DNA from: Alphaproteobacteria bacterium
GTDB lineage: Bacteria > Pseudomonadota > Alphaproteobacteria > ATCC43930 > CGMCC-115725
Direction of reading: 5' to 3'
Assembly (NCBI GenBank): GCA_030041385.1
Contig: JASHNY010000095.1
Location: forward strand, 1-48,933
DNA: 48,933 nucleotides
A program made the position numbers and the translations under genes. Positions 26,082-31,714 of this stretch are shown in pieces. Each line of letters opens with the position of its first letter. Positions within the stretch are counted from its first letter, which is position 1. The notes under the pieces are model-generated. The model was not told where the DNA came from. It saw nothing but the letters and a program-made list of their open reading frames with translations, and made no database searches.

Positions 26082-26828
26082 ATGGCTTTCAAGAACCTGC
26101 GCGATGAAATTGATGCGACTCTCGCGCGCGATCCGGCCGCCCGGTCGCGGATCGAGGTCGTGCTGTGCTATCCCGGCTTTCATGCGCTCCTCTATTACCG
26201 GCTCGCTCATTGGTTGTGGGAGCGCCGGTGGTTCCTGCTTGGCCGCTTCGTCTCCCATTTCGGGCGCATCCTGACCGGGATCGACATCCATCCCGGCGCC
26301 CGCATCGGCCGGCGCCTGTTCATCGACCATGGCGTCGGCGTCGTCATCGGGGAGACCGCCGAGATCGGCGATGATTGCACGCTCTACCAGGGTGTGACCC
26401 TTGGCGGCACGCGGCCGTCGCAGGATCAGAGCGGGCAGAAGCGCCATCCCACTCTCGGCAACAACGTGATCGTCGGCTCGGGCGCGCAGGTGCTGGGGCC
26501 GTTCAAGGTCGGCGACGGCGCCCGCATCGGTGCGGCGGCGGTGGTGCTGCGCGAGGTGCCGGCGGGCGCGACGATGGTCGGCAACCCGGCGCGCCAGATG
26601 CCGCGGCGCAGCGCCCGCGACGAGGCGCGGCCGGAATTCGAGCCCTACGGGGTGACCGGCGAGATCCCGGATCCGATCGCCCGTGCGCTGAACGGCCTTC
26701 TCGGCGAGGTCGCGACGCTGCGGGCCCGGCTCGACGAGGTCGAACGCGAGCGCAGCGGCGCAGACGGCTCGGCATTGCCACTGGCGGCCCGGCAGGATTG
26801 CAGTTGCGATGGCGAGCGCGCCTCGTGA
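26082..26828 (+). CDS. cysE: Serine O-acetyltransferase
   Basis: CysE makes O-acetylserine from serine and acetyl-CoA, the first step of cysteine synthesis. The 248-residue product has an N-terminal helical part ([20 protein letters not shown]) and the left-handed hexapeptide-repeat helix ([39 protein letters not shown]). The start at 26082 is chosen because AGGG lies 6 nt upstream; an ATG 6 nt earlier lacks spacing. The C terminus overlaps nothing and iscR begins 10 nt after the stop. Cysteine supply and the desulfurases downstream form one logical unit. Confidence 0.93.
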
Positions 26829-26838
26829 GGGCGAAGCG

Positions 26839-27315
26839 ATGAAGTTGAGCACCAAAGGCCGCTATGCCGTGATGGCGATGGTCGATCTCGCCCGCCACAG
26901 CAACGGCAACCCCGTCTCCCTCGCCGAGATTGCCGAGCGGCAGGAAATCTCATTGTCCTACCTCGAACAGCTGTTCGCCCGGCTGCGCCGCGGCGGCCTG
27001 GTCAAGAGCGTGCGCGGACCGGGCGGCGGCTATCTGCTCGCGCATGACCGCGATACCACCCGCATCTCCGACATCATCCTTGCCGTCGACGAGCCGATCC
27101 GGGCGATCCGCTGCACGCCGGGCATGTCGGTCGGCTGCCGCGGCGACCGCAGCCGCTGCCTGACCCATGATCTGTGGGAGGAACTGGCCAACCAGATCCA
27201 CCTGTACCTGAGCTCGGTGTCGCTCGGCGATGTCTGCGAGAAGCGCGTGCTCGGCACCAGCGGCATCGTCCAGCGCGAGGCCTATCGCGCGATGGAAGCG
27301 GTCGTACTGCGCTGA
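26839..27315 (+). CDS. iscR: Rrf2-family Fe-S regulator IscR
   Basis: This 158-residue Rrf2-type winged-helix regulator begins MKLSTKGRYAVMAMVDLA. The cluster ligands are C92, C100, C107 and H110 (RCTPGMSVGC, then CLTHDLW). The cysteine spacing is wider than in E. coli IscR (92, 98, 104, 107). It would bind a [2Fe-2S] cluster and repress the operon when clusters are plentiful; the site at 25911-25935 is a candidate target. The ATG at 26839 is favoured over a start 30 nt upstream that would overlap cysE. Confidence 0.93.
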   Translation: MKLSTKGRYAVMAMVDLARHSNGNPVSLAEIAERQEISLSYLEQLFARLRRGGLVKSVRGPGGGYLLAHDRDTTRISDIILAVDEPIRAIRCTPGMSVGCRGDRSRCLTHDLWEELANQIHLYLSSVSLGDVCEKRVLGTSGIVQREAYRAMEAVVLR

Positions 27316-27324
27316 CGGGCCGGT

Positions 27325-28434
27325 ATGACCGCACGCGAAACCTATCTCGACTGGAATGCCACGACTCCGCTGCGGCCCGCGGCGGCGGCGGCGATGCAGG
27401 CGGCGATGGCGCATTGCGGCAACGCGTCCTCGGTGCATCGCTGGGGCCGCGCGGCGCGGCGGGGCGTCGAGCGGGCGCGCGAGAGCGTGGCCGCGCTCGT
27501 GAACCTGCCCGGTGCCCAGGTTGTCTTCACCGGCGGCGGCACCGAGGCGAACCATCTCGCGTTGATCGGCAGCGGCCGCGAGCGGGTGCTGGTGTCGGCG
27601 GTCGAGCATAGTTCGGTGTTGCAGGCGGTGCCGACGGCGGAAGCGATCCCGGTCGATGCCGACGGCATCGTGGACCTGGCTTGGCTCGAACGGCGCCTCG
27701 CCGCCGACGCAAGGCCGAGCGTGGTGTCGGTGATGTTAGCCAACAACGAAACCGGGGTGATCGAGCCGGTGCAGGAAATCGCAAAAATTGCACACTCTTA
27801 CGGCGCTTTGTTGCATTGCGACATGATCCAGGCGGCCGGCAAGATGGCGATCGATATCGGCGCGTTCGGCGCCGACCTCGCCACCCTGTCGGCGCACAAG
27901 ATCGGCGGGCCGGCGGGTGTCGGTGCACTGGTAGCCGCTCCGGGTGTCGAATTGGCGCCGATGATCCGCGGCGGTGGACAGGAGCAGGGCCGCCGCGCCG
28001 GCAGCGAGAACACGATCGGCATCGCCGGCTTTGCCGCCGCCGCCGAGACCGCCGCGGCCGAAATCGGGACTTACGACCGCGTCCGCGAGCTGCGCGACCG
28101 GCTCGAAGCGGCCTTGCCCGACGCTGCGCTCGTGATCGCCGCCGCCGCGCCGCGCCTGCCGAATACCTCGGCGATTGCGATGCCGGGGGTCGCCGCCGAA
28201 ACCCAGGTGATCGCGCTCGATCTCGCCGGGATCATGGTCAGTGCCGGCGCCGCCTGCTCGTCGGGCAAGGTCGGGCCAAGCCATGTCTTGGCGGCGATGG
28301 GGGCGGCGCCCGAAATCCTCCGCTCGACGATCCGCGTCAGCCTCGGCTGGGCCACCACCCAGGCCGATATCGAGCATTTTCTCGACGCCTGGACGGGGCT
28401 GCATCGCCGGCTGCGGCGCAGGCGGGCGGCATGA
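27325..28434 (+). CDS. Cysteine desulfurase (NifS-like), first of two
   Basis: This 369-residue class V PLP enzyme removes sulfur from cysteine as an enzyme-bound persulfide. It has YLDWNATTPL, the VFTGGGTEANHLAL loop, the PLP lysine K192 in LSAHKIGGPAG and the persulfide cysteine in SAGAACSSGKVGPSHVL. Both catalytic residues are present, so it is likely active. The gene follows iscR by 9 nt, and its stop overlaps the next start (ATGA at 28431-28434). A second, clearly different desulfurase follows directly. Confidence 0.92.
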   Translation: MTARETYLDWNATTPLRPAAAAAMQAAMAHCGNASSVHRWGRAARRGVERARESVAALVNLPGAQVVFTGGGTEANHLALIGSGRERVLVSAVEHSSVLQAVPTAEAIPVDADGIVDLAWLERRLAADARPSVVSVMLANNETGVIEPVQEIAKIAHSYGALLHCDMIQAAGKMAIDIGAFGADLATLSAHKIGGPAGVGALVAAPGVELAPMIRGGGQEQGRRAGSENTIGIAGFAAAAETAAAEIGTYDRVRELRDRLEAALPDAALVIAAAAPRLPNTSAIAMPGVAAETQVIALDLAGIMVSAGAACSSGKVGPSHVLAAMGAAPEILRSTIRVSLGWATTQADIEHFLDAWTGLHRRLRRRRAA

Positions 28435-29645
28435 GCGCGGCCTCCCCGGCAGCGGCCGAGCGCGCCAACGCGTTGCCGGTCTATCTCGACAACCAGGCCT
28501 CGACGCCGGTCGACCCGCGCGTGCTCGAGGCGATGCTGCCGTATTTCACCGAGCATTTCGGCAACCCGCACAGCGAAAGCCATGTCTACGGCAGCAACGC
28601 GATGGCGGCGATCGAGGCGGCGCGCGGCGACATCGCCCGGCTGATCGGCGCCGACCCCCGCGAGATCGTGTTCACCTCCGGCGCGACCGAGGCGAACAAC
28701 CTCGCGATCAAGGGCGCGGCCCATTTCGCCCGCGCCCATCCGCCGGCGAACGGCACCGCGCGCGACCACATCGTCGCCCTGGCGACCGAGCACAAATGCG
28801 TGCTCGAAAGCTGCGCCGCGCTCGAACGCGAAGGGTTCGCGGTCACCTATCTCGCGGTCGAGCCCAACGGGTTGGTATCGCTCGACCGATTGGCGGCCGC
28901 AATCGGCGAACGCACGCTGCTGGTTTCGGTGATGGCGGCGCATAACGAGATCGGCGTGATCCAGCCCCTGGCCGAGATCGGCGCGCTGTGCCGGGAGCGT
29001 GGCGCGCTGTTCCACAGCGACGCCGCCCAGGCCTTCGGCAAGATCACGCTCGATGTCGAGGCGATGAAGATCGACCTGATGTCGATCTCGGGCCACAAAA
29101 TCTATGGCCCGAAGGGCATCGGCGCGATTTATGTGCGGCGGCGGCCGCGGGTGCGCCTGATCCCGCTGATCGACGGCGGCGGGCAGGAGCGCGGGCTGCG
29201 CTCCGGCACCCTGCCGACGCCGCTTTGCGTCGGCCTCGGCCGCGCTGCGGCGATCGCCGGTGCCGAAATGGCGGCGGAGGCCGAGCGCGTCGGCCGGCTG
29301 CGCGACCGGCTGCGGCAGAATCTGATGCGCCGCATTGCCGGGCTGCAGATCAACGGCGATCAGCAGCATCGCCTGCCCGGCAACCTGAATGTCTCGTTCC
29401 CGGGCATGACCGCGCCGGAACTGATCGAGGCCTGCCCGTCGATCGCGATCTCGACCGGGTCGGCCTGCACCTCGGCGACGGTCGAACCCTCTTACGTGTT
29501 GCGCGCGTTGGGGCTTTCCGATGCAGCGGCAAACGCTTCCATCCGCATCGGCATCGGCCGTTTCAATACCGCGGATGACGTGGATTTCGCCGTCGACGCG
29601 CTGACCGCCGCTGCGACCCGGCTCGGCCGCGCGCGGCACGGTTGA
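28431..29645 (+). CDS. iscS: Cysteine desulfurase IscS
   Basis: This 404-residue product is closest to housekeeping IscS. It has VYLDNQASTPVDPRVLEAM, FTSGATEANNLAIKG, the PLP lysine in SISGHKIYGPKGIGA and the catalytic cysteine loop STGSACTSATVEPSYVLRALG. IscS supplies sulfur for Fe-S clusters and, directly or through carriers, to MnmA. The ATG at 28431 overlaps the upstream desulfurase stop. No IscU follows: the 69 bp to iscA contain no gene. Confidence 0.94.
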   Translation: MSAASPAAAERANALPVYLDNQASTPVDPRVLEAMLPYFTEHFGNPHSESHVYGSNAMAAIEAARGDIARLIGADPREIVFTSGATEANNLAIKGAAHFARAHPPANGTARDHIVALATEHKCVLESCAALEREGFAVTYLAVEPNGLVSLDRLAAAIGERTLLVSVMAAHNEIGVIQPLAEIGALCRERGALFHSDAAQAFGKITLDVEAMKIDLMSISGHKIYGPKGIGAIYVRRRPRVRLIPLIDGGGQERGLRSGTLPTPLCVGLGRAAAIAGAEMAAEAERVGRLRDRLRQNLMRRIAGLQINGDQQHRLPGNLNVSFPGMTAPELIEACPSIAISTGSACTSATVEPSYVLRALGLSDAAANASIRIGIGRFNTADDVDFAVDALTAAATRLGRARHG

Positions 29646-29714: not shown

Positions 29715-30053
29715 ATGGCGCTGAAACAGGCCCTGTCGGTAACCGATTCCGCGGCGCAGCGGATTCAGGCATTGCTCGCGCGGCGCGGCAAGCCTTCGGT
29801 CGGGGTGCGCGTCGGGGTGCGCGCGCGCGGCTGCTCGGGGCTCAGCTACACGCTCGAATACGCCGACGAGAAGGGCAAGTTCGACGAGGTCGTCGAGACC
29901 AAGGGAGTGACGGTGCTGGTCGACCCCAAGGCGATCATGTTCATCCTCGGCACCGAGATGGACTATGTCGAGGAAAAGCTCGAATCCGGCTTCGTCTTCC
30001 GCAATCCGAACGAGAAGGGGCGCTGCGGTTGTGGCGAGTCGTTTCACGTTTGA
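29715..30053 (+). CDS. iscA: A-type Fe-S carrier protein IscA
   Basis: This 112-residue A-type carrier has the three conserved cysteines in VRARGCSGLSYTLEY and GRCGCGESFHV. It delivers or stores clusters during Fe-S assembly. A GAAGCAGGTGGAAG region before the ATG provides a ribosome-binding site. It stands where iscU-iscA-hscB-hscA would be in a full isc operon; only iscA is intact here. Confidence 0.94.
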   Translation: MALKQALSVTDSAAQRIQALLARRGKPSVGVRVGVRARGCSGLSYTLEYADEKGKFDEVVETKGVTVLVDPKAIMFILGTEMDYVEEKLESGFVFRNPNEKGRCGCGESFHV

Positions 30054-30249: not shown

Positions 30250-30693
30250 GTGAAACTGTTCCAGATCGAGGAACCGGACGGGTCGCCGAATGACCCGGAA
30301 GCACCCGGAGCGGCGGTCGGTATCGACGTCGCCGGCGGCGCACCCGAGGTCGCGTTTGCGGTCGGCGGCAACGCGGCCGTGCTCGGCGACCGCGACGGCT
30401 TTTCGCTCGACCTGGCCGTACCGCCGGCGGCGGCGCCGCAAGCGGCATGGCTGGCCCTGTTCGAGGGCGTCCGCCTGCGCGCCGAGCGGGCGCTCGGCCG
30501 CCCGGTCACCCATGCCGTCGTGGCGGTCGCGGCGCGCCCTGCCCCGTCCTTCATCGAATTCCTGGGCGAGGCCGCGGCCGCCGCGGGCATCGCAGTGTTG
30601 CGCGTGGAGGCGATGCCGATGAGCGGTGACGGGCGGGCATGCGCCGCGGCGATGCTCGCGGAAGACCTCGCGCCGCGCCCGGCCGGACTCTAG
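30250..30693 (+). CDS. Shortened HscA/Hsp70-like protein
   Basis: This 147-residue ORF starts with GTG (an in-frame TGA at 30226-30228 excludes longer versions). Its beginning, LFQIEEP...AAVGID, parallels the HscA start LLQIxEP...AAGIDLGTTNS, but the phosphate loop is replaced by GIDVAGGAPE. Residues around 75-120 (LRAERALGRPVTHAVVAVAA, then EAAAAAGIAVLRVEAMP) parallel the HscA segment ending VPAYF...AARLAGLxVLRLLNEP. The roughly 90 residues between, and everything after that point (the rest of the ATPase and the substrate domain), are missing. It lies between iscA and fdx, exactly where hscA normally sits. It is either a relic or a repurposed fragment; the frame is intact. Confidence 0.6.
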   Translation: MKLFQIEEPDGSPNDPEAPGAAVGIDVAGGAPEVAFAVGGNAAVLGDRDGFSLDLAVPPAAAPQAAWLALFEGVRLRAERALGRPVTHAVVAVAARPAPSFIEFLGEAAAAAGIAVLRVEAMPMSGDGRACAAAMLAEDLAPRPAGL

Positions 30694-30705: not shown

Positions 30706-31038
30706 ATGCCCAAGATGGTATTCATCGAGCGCAACGGCACCGCGCATGAGGTTGATGCGCCGCTCGGCCTGTCGGTGCTCGAAATCGCCCACCGCAACGA
30801 CATCGACATCGAGGGCGCGTGCGAGGGGTCGCTCGCCTGCTCGACCTGCCACGTGATCGTGGACCCCGAATGGTACGAGCTGCTGAAGGAGGCCAGCGAG
30901 GACGAGGAGGACATGCTCGACCTCGCTTTCGGGCTGACCAACACCTCGCGGCTCGGCTGCCAAATCATCATGACCGAGGAACTGGACGGGCTGACCGTGC
31001 GGTTGCCCGCCGCAACCCGCAATCTGTTGAACGGCTGA
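30706..31038 (+). CDS. fdx: Adrenodoxin-type [2Fe-2S] ferredoxin of the isc operon
   Basis: This 110-residue ferredoxin has the [10 protein letters not shown] motif plus a fourth cysteine in SRLGCQI and the acidic partner-binding helix around [13 protein letters not shown]. Isc ferredoxin gives electrons for cluster assembly. An AGGGG site precedes the ATG. tenA starts 4 nt after its stop, so the genes are probably one transcript. Confidence 0.95.
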
Positions 31039-31042
31039 AGCG

Positions 31043-31714
31043 GTGGCAGGCGCGCTGTTCGCCCGCCTGGTCGCCGCCGCCCAACGCGACTGGCACCGCT
31101 ACACGCGCCACGAGTTCGTCCTCGCGCTGGCGCGCGGCGACCTGCCCGAGCCGGCGTTCCGCCGCTACCTGGTGCAGGATTACCTGTTCCTATTGCATTT
31201 CGCCCGGGCCTGGGGCCTCGCGATCTATAAATCCGAGACCCTTGCGGAGATGCGCCGCGCCCAGGGGTTGGTTGCCGCGACGCTCGAAACTGAGATCGGC
31301 CTGCATATCGCCTATTGCCGCGCCTGGGGCCTCAGCGAGGCGGCGATGGCGGCCGAGCCCGAAGCGCTCGCAACGATCGCCTATACCCGCTTCGTGCTCG
31401 ACCGCGGGTTGGCCGGCGACCGGCTCGACCTCGAAGTGGCATTGGCGCCGTGCATCATCGGCTATGCCGAGATCGCGGCGGAACGCATGGCCGACCCGGC
31501 AACGCGCCGCGACGGCAACCGCTACCGCGAATGGCTCGACATGTATGCCGGTGCCGACTACCAAAGCCTGGCGCGCGAGGCGATGGCCGCGCTCGACGAG
31601 CAATTCGCCCGCCGCGGCGGCGAAGGGCGCTTTCCGGCGCTGGCTGCGATGTTTGCCGCCGCGACGCGGCTCGAATCCGATTTCTGGCAGATGGGCCTCG
31701 ACGCCGCTAAATAA
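31043..31714 (+). CDS. tenA: TenA-family aminopyrimidine hydrolase (thiaminase II)
   Basis: This 223-residue all-helical protein matches TenA, which salvages thiamine pyrimidine from degraded thiamine. It has the [19 protein letters not shown] segment (the D of QDY is an active-site residue), the cysteine in [16 protein letters not shown] and the C-terminal glutamate region [10 protein letters not shown]. It begins with GTG at 31043. Its place between fdx and mnmA suggests co-expression with sulfur metabolism; thiamine thiazole synthesis also uses desulfurase sulfur. Confidence 0.87.

Follow-up and report, generated by a model that had tools for sequence, protein, structure and literature searches.

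A short, selectively retained descendant of the chaperone HscA between iscA and fdx in a family of Alphaproteobacteria

Hsp70 proteins are commonly regarded as ATP-driven two-domain machines. Variants with deletions within the NBD relative to DnaK, HscC among them, have been described, with ATP site and substrate domain both still present; the same review describes the role of the HscA N-terminal tail as unclear (PMC8215388). For Alphaproteobacteria, a survey infers that ISC is ancestral and was lost in many lineages, ISC and SUF being largely mutually exclusive (PMC10631705). In Mycobacterium tuberculosis, a truncated isc operon with iscS alone stands beside a full SUF system (PMC10848736).

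The protein described here, mini-HscA, shares with the NBD-deleted variants the presence of deletions within the NBD, but it keeps neither the ATP site nor the substrate domain. Its locus is similar to the M. tuberculosis one in that ISC genes persist alongside SUF; however, a whole enzyme, IscS, persists there (PMC10848736), whereas here a piece of a chaperone is retained as well. The closest relative is HscA itself (TIGR01991 / NF003520), with which mini-HscA shares a site flanked by iscA and fdx, an N-terminal tail with LxQIxEP, and the three pieces of subdomain IA. Unlike HscA, it has no nucleotide motifs, no subdomains IB, IIA, and IIB, and no substrate domain, and it is encoded in a genome without HscB and IscU.

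The mini-HscA gene (positions 30250..30693, + strand; 147 aa, GTG start) lies in a window of 48,933 nucleotides, the whole stretch of DNA analysed (contig JASHNY010000095.1, assembly GCA_030041385.1). The genes around it follow an operon-like order: iscR, NifS-like desulfurase, IscS-like desulfurase, iscA, the mini-HscA ORF, fdx, tenA, and mnmA; those from iscR to fdx are on the + strand. Profile matches identified the IscR-like regulator (26809..27315) and the NifS-like cysteine desulfurase (27325..28434), and sequence comparison together with NCBIfam identified an IscS-like cysteine desulfurase (28431..29645) in which the cysteine loop is present and the C-terminal tail is absent. The 5′ neighbour is iscA (29715..30053; Pfam PF01521, NCBIfam IscA) and, 12 bases 3′, there is an ISC-type ferredoxin gene, fdx (30706..31038; Pfam PF00111, NCBIfam fdx_isc). 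The open frame and these Pfam and NCBIfam neighbours bear out the sequence-only reading, which had placed a 147-residue ORF at the normal hscA site. A TenA-like gene follows fdx (31043-31714 of the window); its presence extends to relatives in g1 and g11 and to the sister family, but in most of the family's other genera none was found after fdx.

The region is GC-rich, and 88 ORFs of at least 60 aa overlap 13 kb of it, making a lone ORF weak evidence. Moreover, the match of the window ORF to Pfam HSP70 (E 0.46, 9.1 bits) is below the cut-off of 20.6 bits and non-significant, so that a single sequence cannot settle whether it derives from HscA. A chance ORF is ruled out by the conservation of the frame throughout the family.

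Strong matches among the 99 related genomes searched were confined to the window's own family, where complete copies of mini-HscA, including that of the window, were present in 26/39 genomes and in nine of the eleven genera, with lengths from 117 to 161 residues; two further copies (L023 and L033) are interrupted by contig ends. All 26 complete copies lie between iscA and fdx and have no internal stop. Indeed, every readable iscA-fdx interval (28/28) contains a gene, the 26 mini-HscAs plus two forms of 265 aa; in the remaining family genomes, the locus is cut at contig ends or missing from the assembly. In one genome of genus g4 (G010, listed as 100% complete), neither ISC-type fdx nor iscA was found at the thresholds used, so the ISC remnant module may be dispensable and its loss as a whole is possible there. 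A scan of 84,980 species, one genome per species, recovered a metagenome-assembled Rhodospirillales/Alphaproteobacteria group plus two full-length HscAs sharing the tail only. Among 385 genomes of the class, the matches listed outside the family were long Hsp70-type frames, bar one 186-aa frame, which represents the beginning of a DnaK-like gene at a contig end; rare short forms may occur elsewhere. All the mini-HscA members come from metagenome assemblies, the bacteria of the family being uncultured. In genus g8 (L028, L030, and L031), ATA stands at the aligned start and an in-frame start is available seven codons upstream, so the tail may be slightly longer there.

The codon model (IQ-TREE) gave an omega of 0.138 for the 26 mini-HscA genes, and fixing omega at 1 moved the log-likelihood from −9321 to −9873, a cost of 552 units. 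Summed over ten pairs, dN/dS was 0.26 for mini-HscA versus 0.08 for iscA and fdx, which indicates a real but looser constraint; partial saturation of the synonymous sites makes single ratios rough. Constraint is strongest in the tail (residues 3-13: entropy 0.39 bits, pN/pS 0.09), followed by the IA pieces (pN/pS 0.25-0.32), while the junctions, the linker, and the C-terminal end range from 0.39 to 0.75, the last value being that of the C-terminal end. It could be supposed that the frame serves translational coupling into fdx, with the protein secondary: only 12 bases separate the two genes in the window, and stop and start overlap in the relative L013. We consider this very improbable, since pN/pS is patterned along the gene (0.09 in the tail versus 0.75 at the C-terminal end) and an open frame alone offers no explanation for it. 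Overall, we are highly confident that mini-HscA is a selected protein.

The sequence-only reading had also raised decay after the loss of the HscBA/IscU pathway. A decaying hscA pseudogene, left behind by a switch from ISC to SUF, would be in line with a length far below that of HscA and with the loss of catalytic motifs and ISC partners. This interpretation is not supported: the 26 orthologues are under purifying selection, the frame is conserved across ten genera, and the stop-free complete copies in nine genera, the omega of 0.138, and a confident compact fold with three IA pieces leave a pseudogene hardly credible.

Family profile comparison gave a clear answer on the origin of the protein. 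The alignment of the 26 mini-HscAs matched that of eight full HscAs in hhalign with an E-value of 5e-16 (98.6% probability, 127 columns), and 14/26 mini-HscAs individually matched Pfam HSP70, the best at 1e-10; the profile search is thus significant for the family, the window ORF alone being sub-threshold. Matches to the NCBIfam HscA models were obtained for one mini-HscA (8e-12) and, over its first 50 residues, for the window ORF (0.001). The HscA equivalog cut-off of 708.55 bits was not reached, the window ORF scoring 17.5 bits to NF003520 and having no TIGR01991 match among those listed. The LxQIxEP motif of the tail is common to mini-HscAs and full HscAs, and AAAMLAEDL, at the C-terminal end of mini-HscA, aligns with GAALQAEAL, the helix that closes the HscA ATPase domain. 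On the basis of the family profile comparison and of the gene position, which agree with the origin first proposed, we regard descent from HscA as practically certain. A full-length hscA elsewhere in the same genome, part of one of the findings that had been named as refuting this origin, was not found: the matches are DnaK plus weaker Hsp70-like sequences.

In two full-length HscAs of other bacteria (L086:6001 and L087:4832; the label of one is Deltaproteobacteria), the tail motif reads LFQIEEPD, exactly as in the mini-HscAs. This identity suggests that the tail has a function under constraint in HscAs at large.

Mini-HscAs are about 145 aa long versus about 630 aa for HscA. The alignment shows that subdomains IB, IIA, and IIB, the DLGGGTFD and VGGSTR regions, and the substrate-binding domain are deleted; the latter, which binds the LPPVK peptide of IscU, is absent in 26/26 mini-HscAs. 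What is retained begins with the HscA-type N-terminal tail (residues 1-18, KLFQIEEPDGSP..., 30250..30303, + strand), the best-conserved stretch on the basis of entropy, pN/pS, and the alignment with full HscAs. Three pieces assigned to subdomain IA follow on the same strand. The first (residues 19-48, 30304..30393), defined by the alignment, has three strands (21-26, 33-38, and 41-44 in the model) and carries DVAGGAP in place of the phosphate-1 loop DLGTTNS, whose loss had been correctly noted from the single sequence. The second (residues 64-122, 30439..30615) is a helix-strand-helix-strand segment supported by the alignment, the model, and the structure match. The third (residues 127-140, 30628..30669) is the helix with which the ATPase domain ends, and it rests on a model helix at 127-139, on the Hsc70 match reaching residue 381, and on the alignment.

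The structures of mini-HscA and of the 265-aa proteins discussed here are predictions throughout. The AlphaFold2 model of mini-HscA, obtained from the family alignment, has a pLDDT of 90.4 and a pTM of 0.83, with the predicted order strand-strand-strand-helix-strand-helix-strand-helix. Its best Foldseek matches in the PDB are Hsp70 NBDs (E 2.7e-5), and VIA-align superposed it on 123 residues of yeast BiP with Z 16.4 and rmsd 2.5; structure prediction, proposed earlier as a check for an actin-like subdomain, thus returns the fold of NBD subdomain IA. The model spans Hsc70 residues 4 to 381, and subdomain IA of Hsc70 comprises residues 1-39, 116-188, and 361-384, from which it follows that all three IA pieces are retained. 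This corrects the sequence-only reading. It had described two remaining blocks with everything after the second one lost, whereas the final IA helix is kept and the remnant is therefore a complete folding unit. The model strongly suggests that mini-HscA folds independently. It is very probably no ATPase.

The loss of the HscBA/IscU pathway, assumed from one locus, is borne out family-wide. The HscA cut-off was reached in 0/39 family genomes, HscB_C was matched in 0/39, and the IscU cut-off was also reached in 0/39, the candidates for an IscU elsewhere in the genome being just SufU-like matches of 38-52 bits. In the sister family, HscB is present in 4/4 genomes, and one locus (L039) has IscU, HscB, and HscA in one operon. 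The opposite pattern is seen for SufB, found in 37/39 family genomes (34 above cut-off, the rest partial) versus 0/4 sister-family genomes; the suf genes are on contigs other than that of the mini-HscA locus. In E. coli, the C-terminal tail of IscS binds IscU. Among the loci read (28431-29645 in the window and L037-L056), this SPLWEM...WAAH tail is missing in 18/18 of the family, where the cysteine loops are kept, and it is retained in both of the sister family. With HscA, HscB, and IscU below cut-off and the IscS tail gone, mini-HscA is kept without any known HscA partner. At one locus (L054:11749-13161, G000:C190), we also observed a SufS-type desulfurase with about 70 additional N-terminal residues, whose best NCBIfam match, to the encapsulin cargo desulfurase of family 2A (E 1.3e-171), is under the model cut-off.

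Both genus g2 genomes have a 265-aa ORF in the iscA-fdx interval (L040:8215-9009 and L041:7518-8312). It is similar to mini-HscA in its position, its tail, and the loss of both the phosphate loops and the substrate domain, but it retains a second, subdomain IIA-like lobe that mini-HscA does not have; its model is a shrunken two-lobed NBD (pLDDT 77, Z 26.5 to DnaK). In a five-protein tree of the operon, for which the sister family served as outgroup, g2 is sister to all the sampled mini-HscA-bearing genomes (98% ultrafast bootstrap). These comparisons fit a stepwise shrinkage from about 630 to about 265 and then to about 145 residues, in which the g2 remnant would be a possible intermediate; alternatively, g2 may have shortened its copy separately. 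A separate, milder HscA reduction is found in a small alphaproteobacterial genome (L127:5343-6584, G220:C5), where a 414-aa HscA with DLGTTNS and DLGGGTFD has an internally shortened NBD and a truncated substrate domain, and iscU and hscB adjoin it.

Regarding function, the earlier suggestion of a new non-ATPase function stands in part: a retained non-ATPase role is supported, and the specific roles considered below are putative. Selection keeps the remnant without the ATP motor or the partners, so this part of HscA probably does a job that is independent of both. The lineage, which has SUF, has shed the parts serving IscU, namely IscU itself, HscB, the IscS tail, and the client domain and motor of HscA; it has retained IscA, the ferredoxin, the desulfurases, and, from HscA, the tail plus a single folding unit. 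On the simplest reading, the remnant binds one of these retained proteins. Docking of IscA, of ferredoxin, or of both, or else of the IscS that lacks its tail, could fall to the HscA tail and the IA surface, both of which are conserved. The best explanation overall, to which we give an even chance, is that mini-HscA acts as an ATP-independent adaptor in the leftover IscS-IscA-Fdx module; the assignment of these three proteins as what the putative adaptor serves is tentative.

Other roles can be conceived for the same protein. A small ATP-independent holdase or client binder, stabilising apo-IscA or ferredoxin with no bridging, would agree with the chaperone ancestry and with the adjacent iscA and fdx in the operon, but the substrate-binding domain, the part with which HscA binds clients, is wholly missing, and we regard this role as unlikely. 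In DnaK, NBD subdomain IA bears part of the J-domain contact surface; mini-HscA, which retains this subdomain in a genome that has DnaK, could therefore occupy J-proteins as a decoy or bind DnaK partners as a regulator. Against this, HscB is absent and the helix of piece 2 that forms part of the DnaK contact (residues 99-111) is poorly conserved and missing in L027, making such a role improbable. We consider similarly improbable a function unrelated to IscA and Fdx, for instance that of a sensor for IscR or of a protein that binds the SUF complex: iscR is first in the same gene run and SUF is present in the family, but nothing points specifically to SUF and the suf genes are on other contigs.

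If the adaptor explanation is extended to HscA itself, its tail and subdomain IA may hold a hidden function independent of ATP, IscU, HscB, and the substrate domain, a possibility that we put forward with considerable reserve. Such a function would be the docking to IscA, ferredoxin, or a desulfurase, normally masked by the chaperone cycle and exposed in the mini-HscA-bearing family.

The open-access papers searched yielded no prior report of a trimmed HscA. Mini-HscA, while descended from HscA, does not pass the tests by which HscA is defined. The family and its sister offer a natural deletion series of one Hsp70, from full length (sister family) to 265 aa (g2) and about 145 aa (the rest), the smallest of which is still under selection. 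Since the survivors are the N-terminal extension and one folding unit of the motor, the other roles of HscA may become approachable with a protein of 147 residues and few candidate partners.
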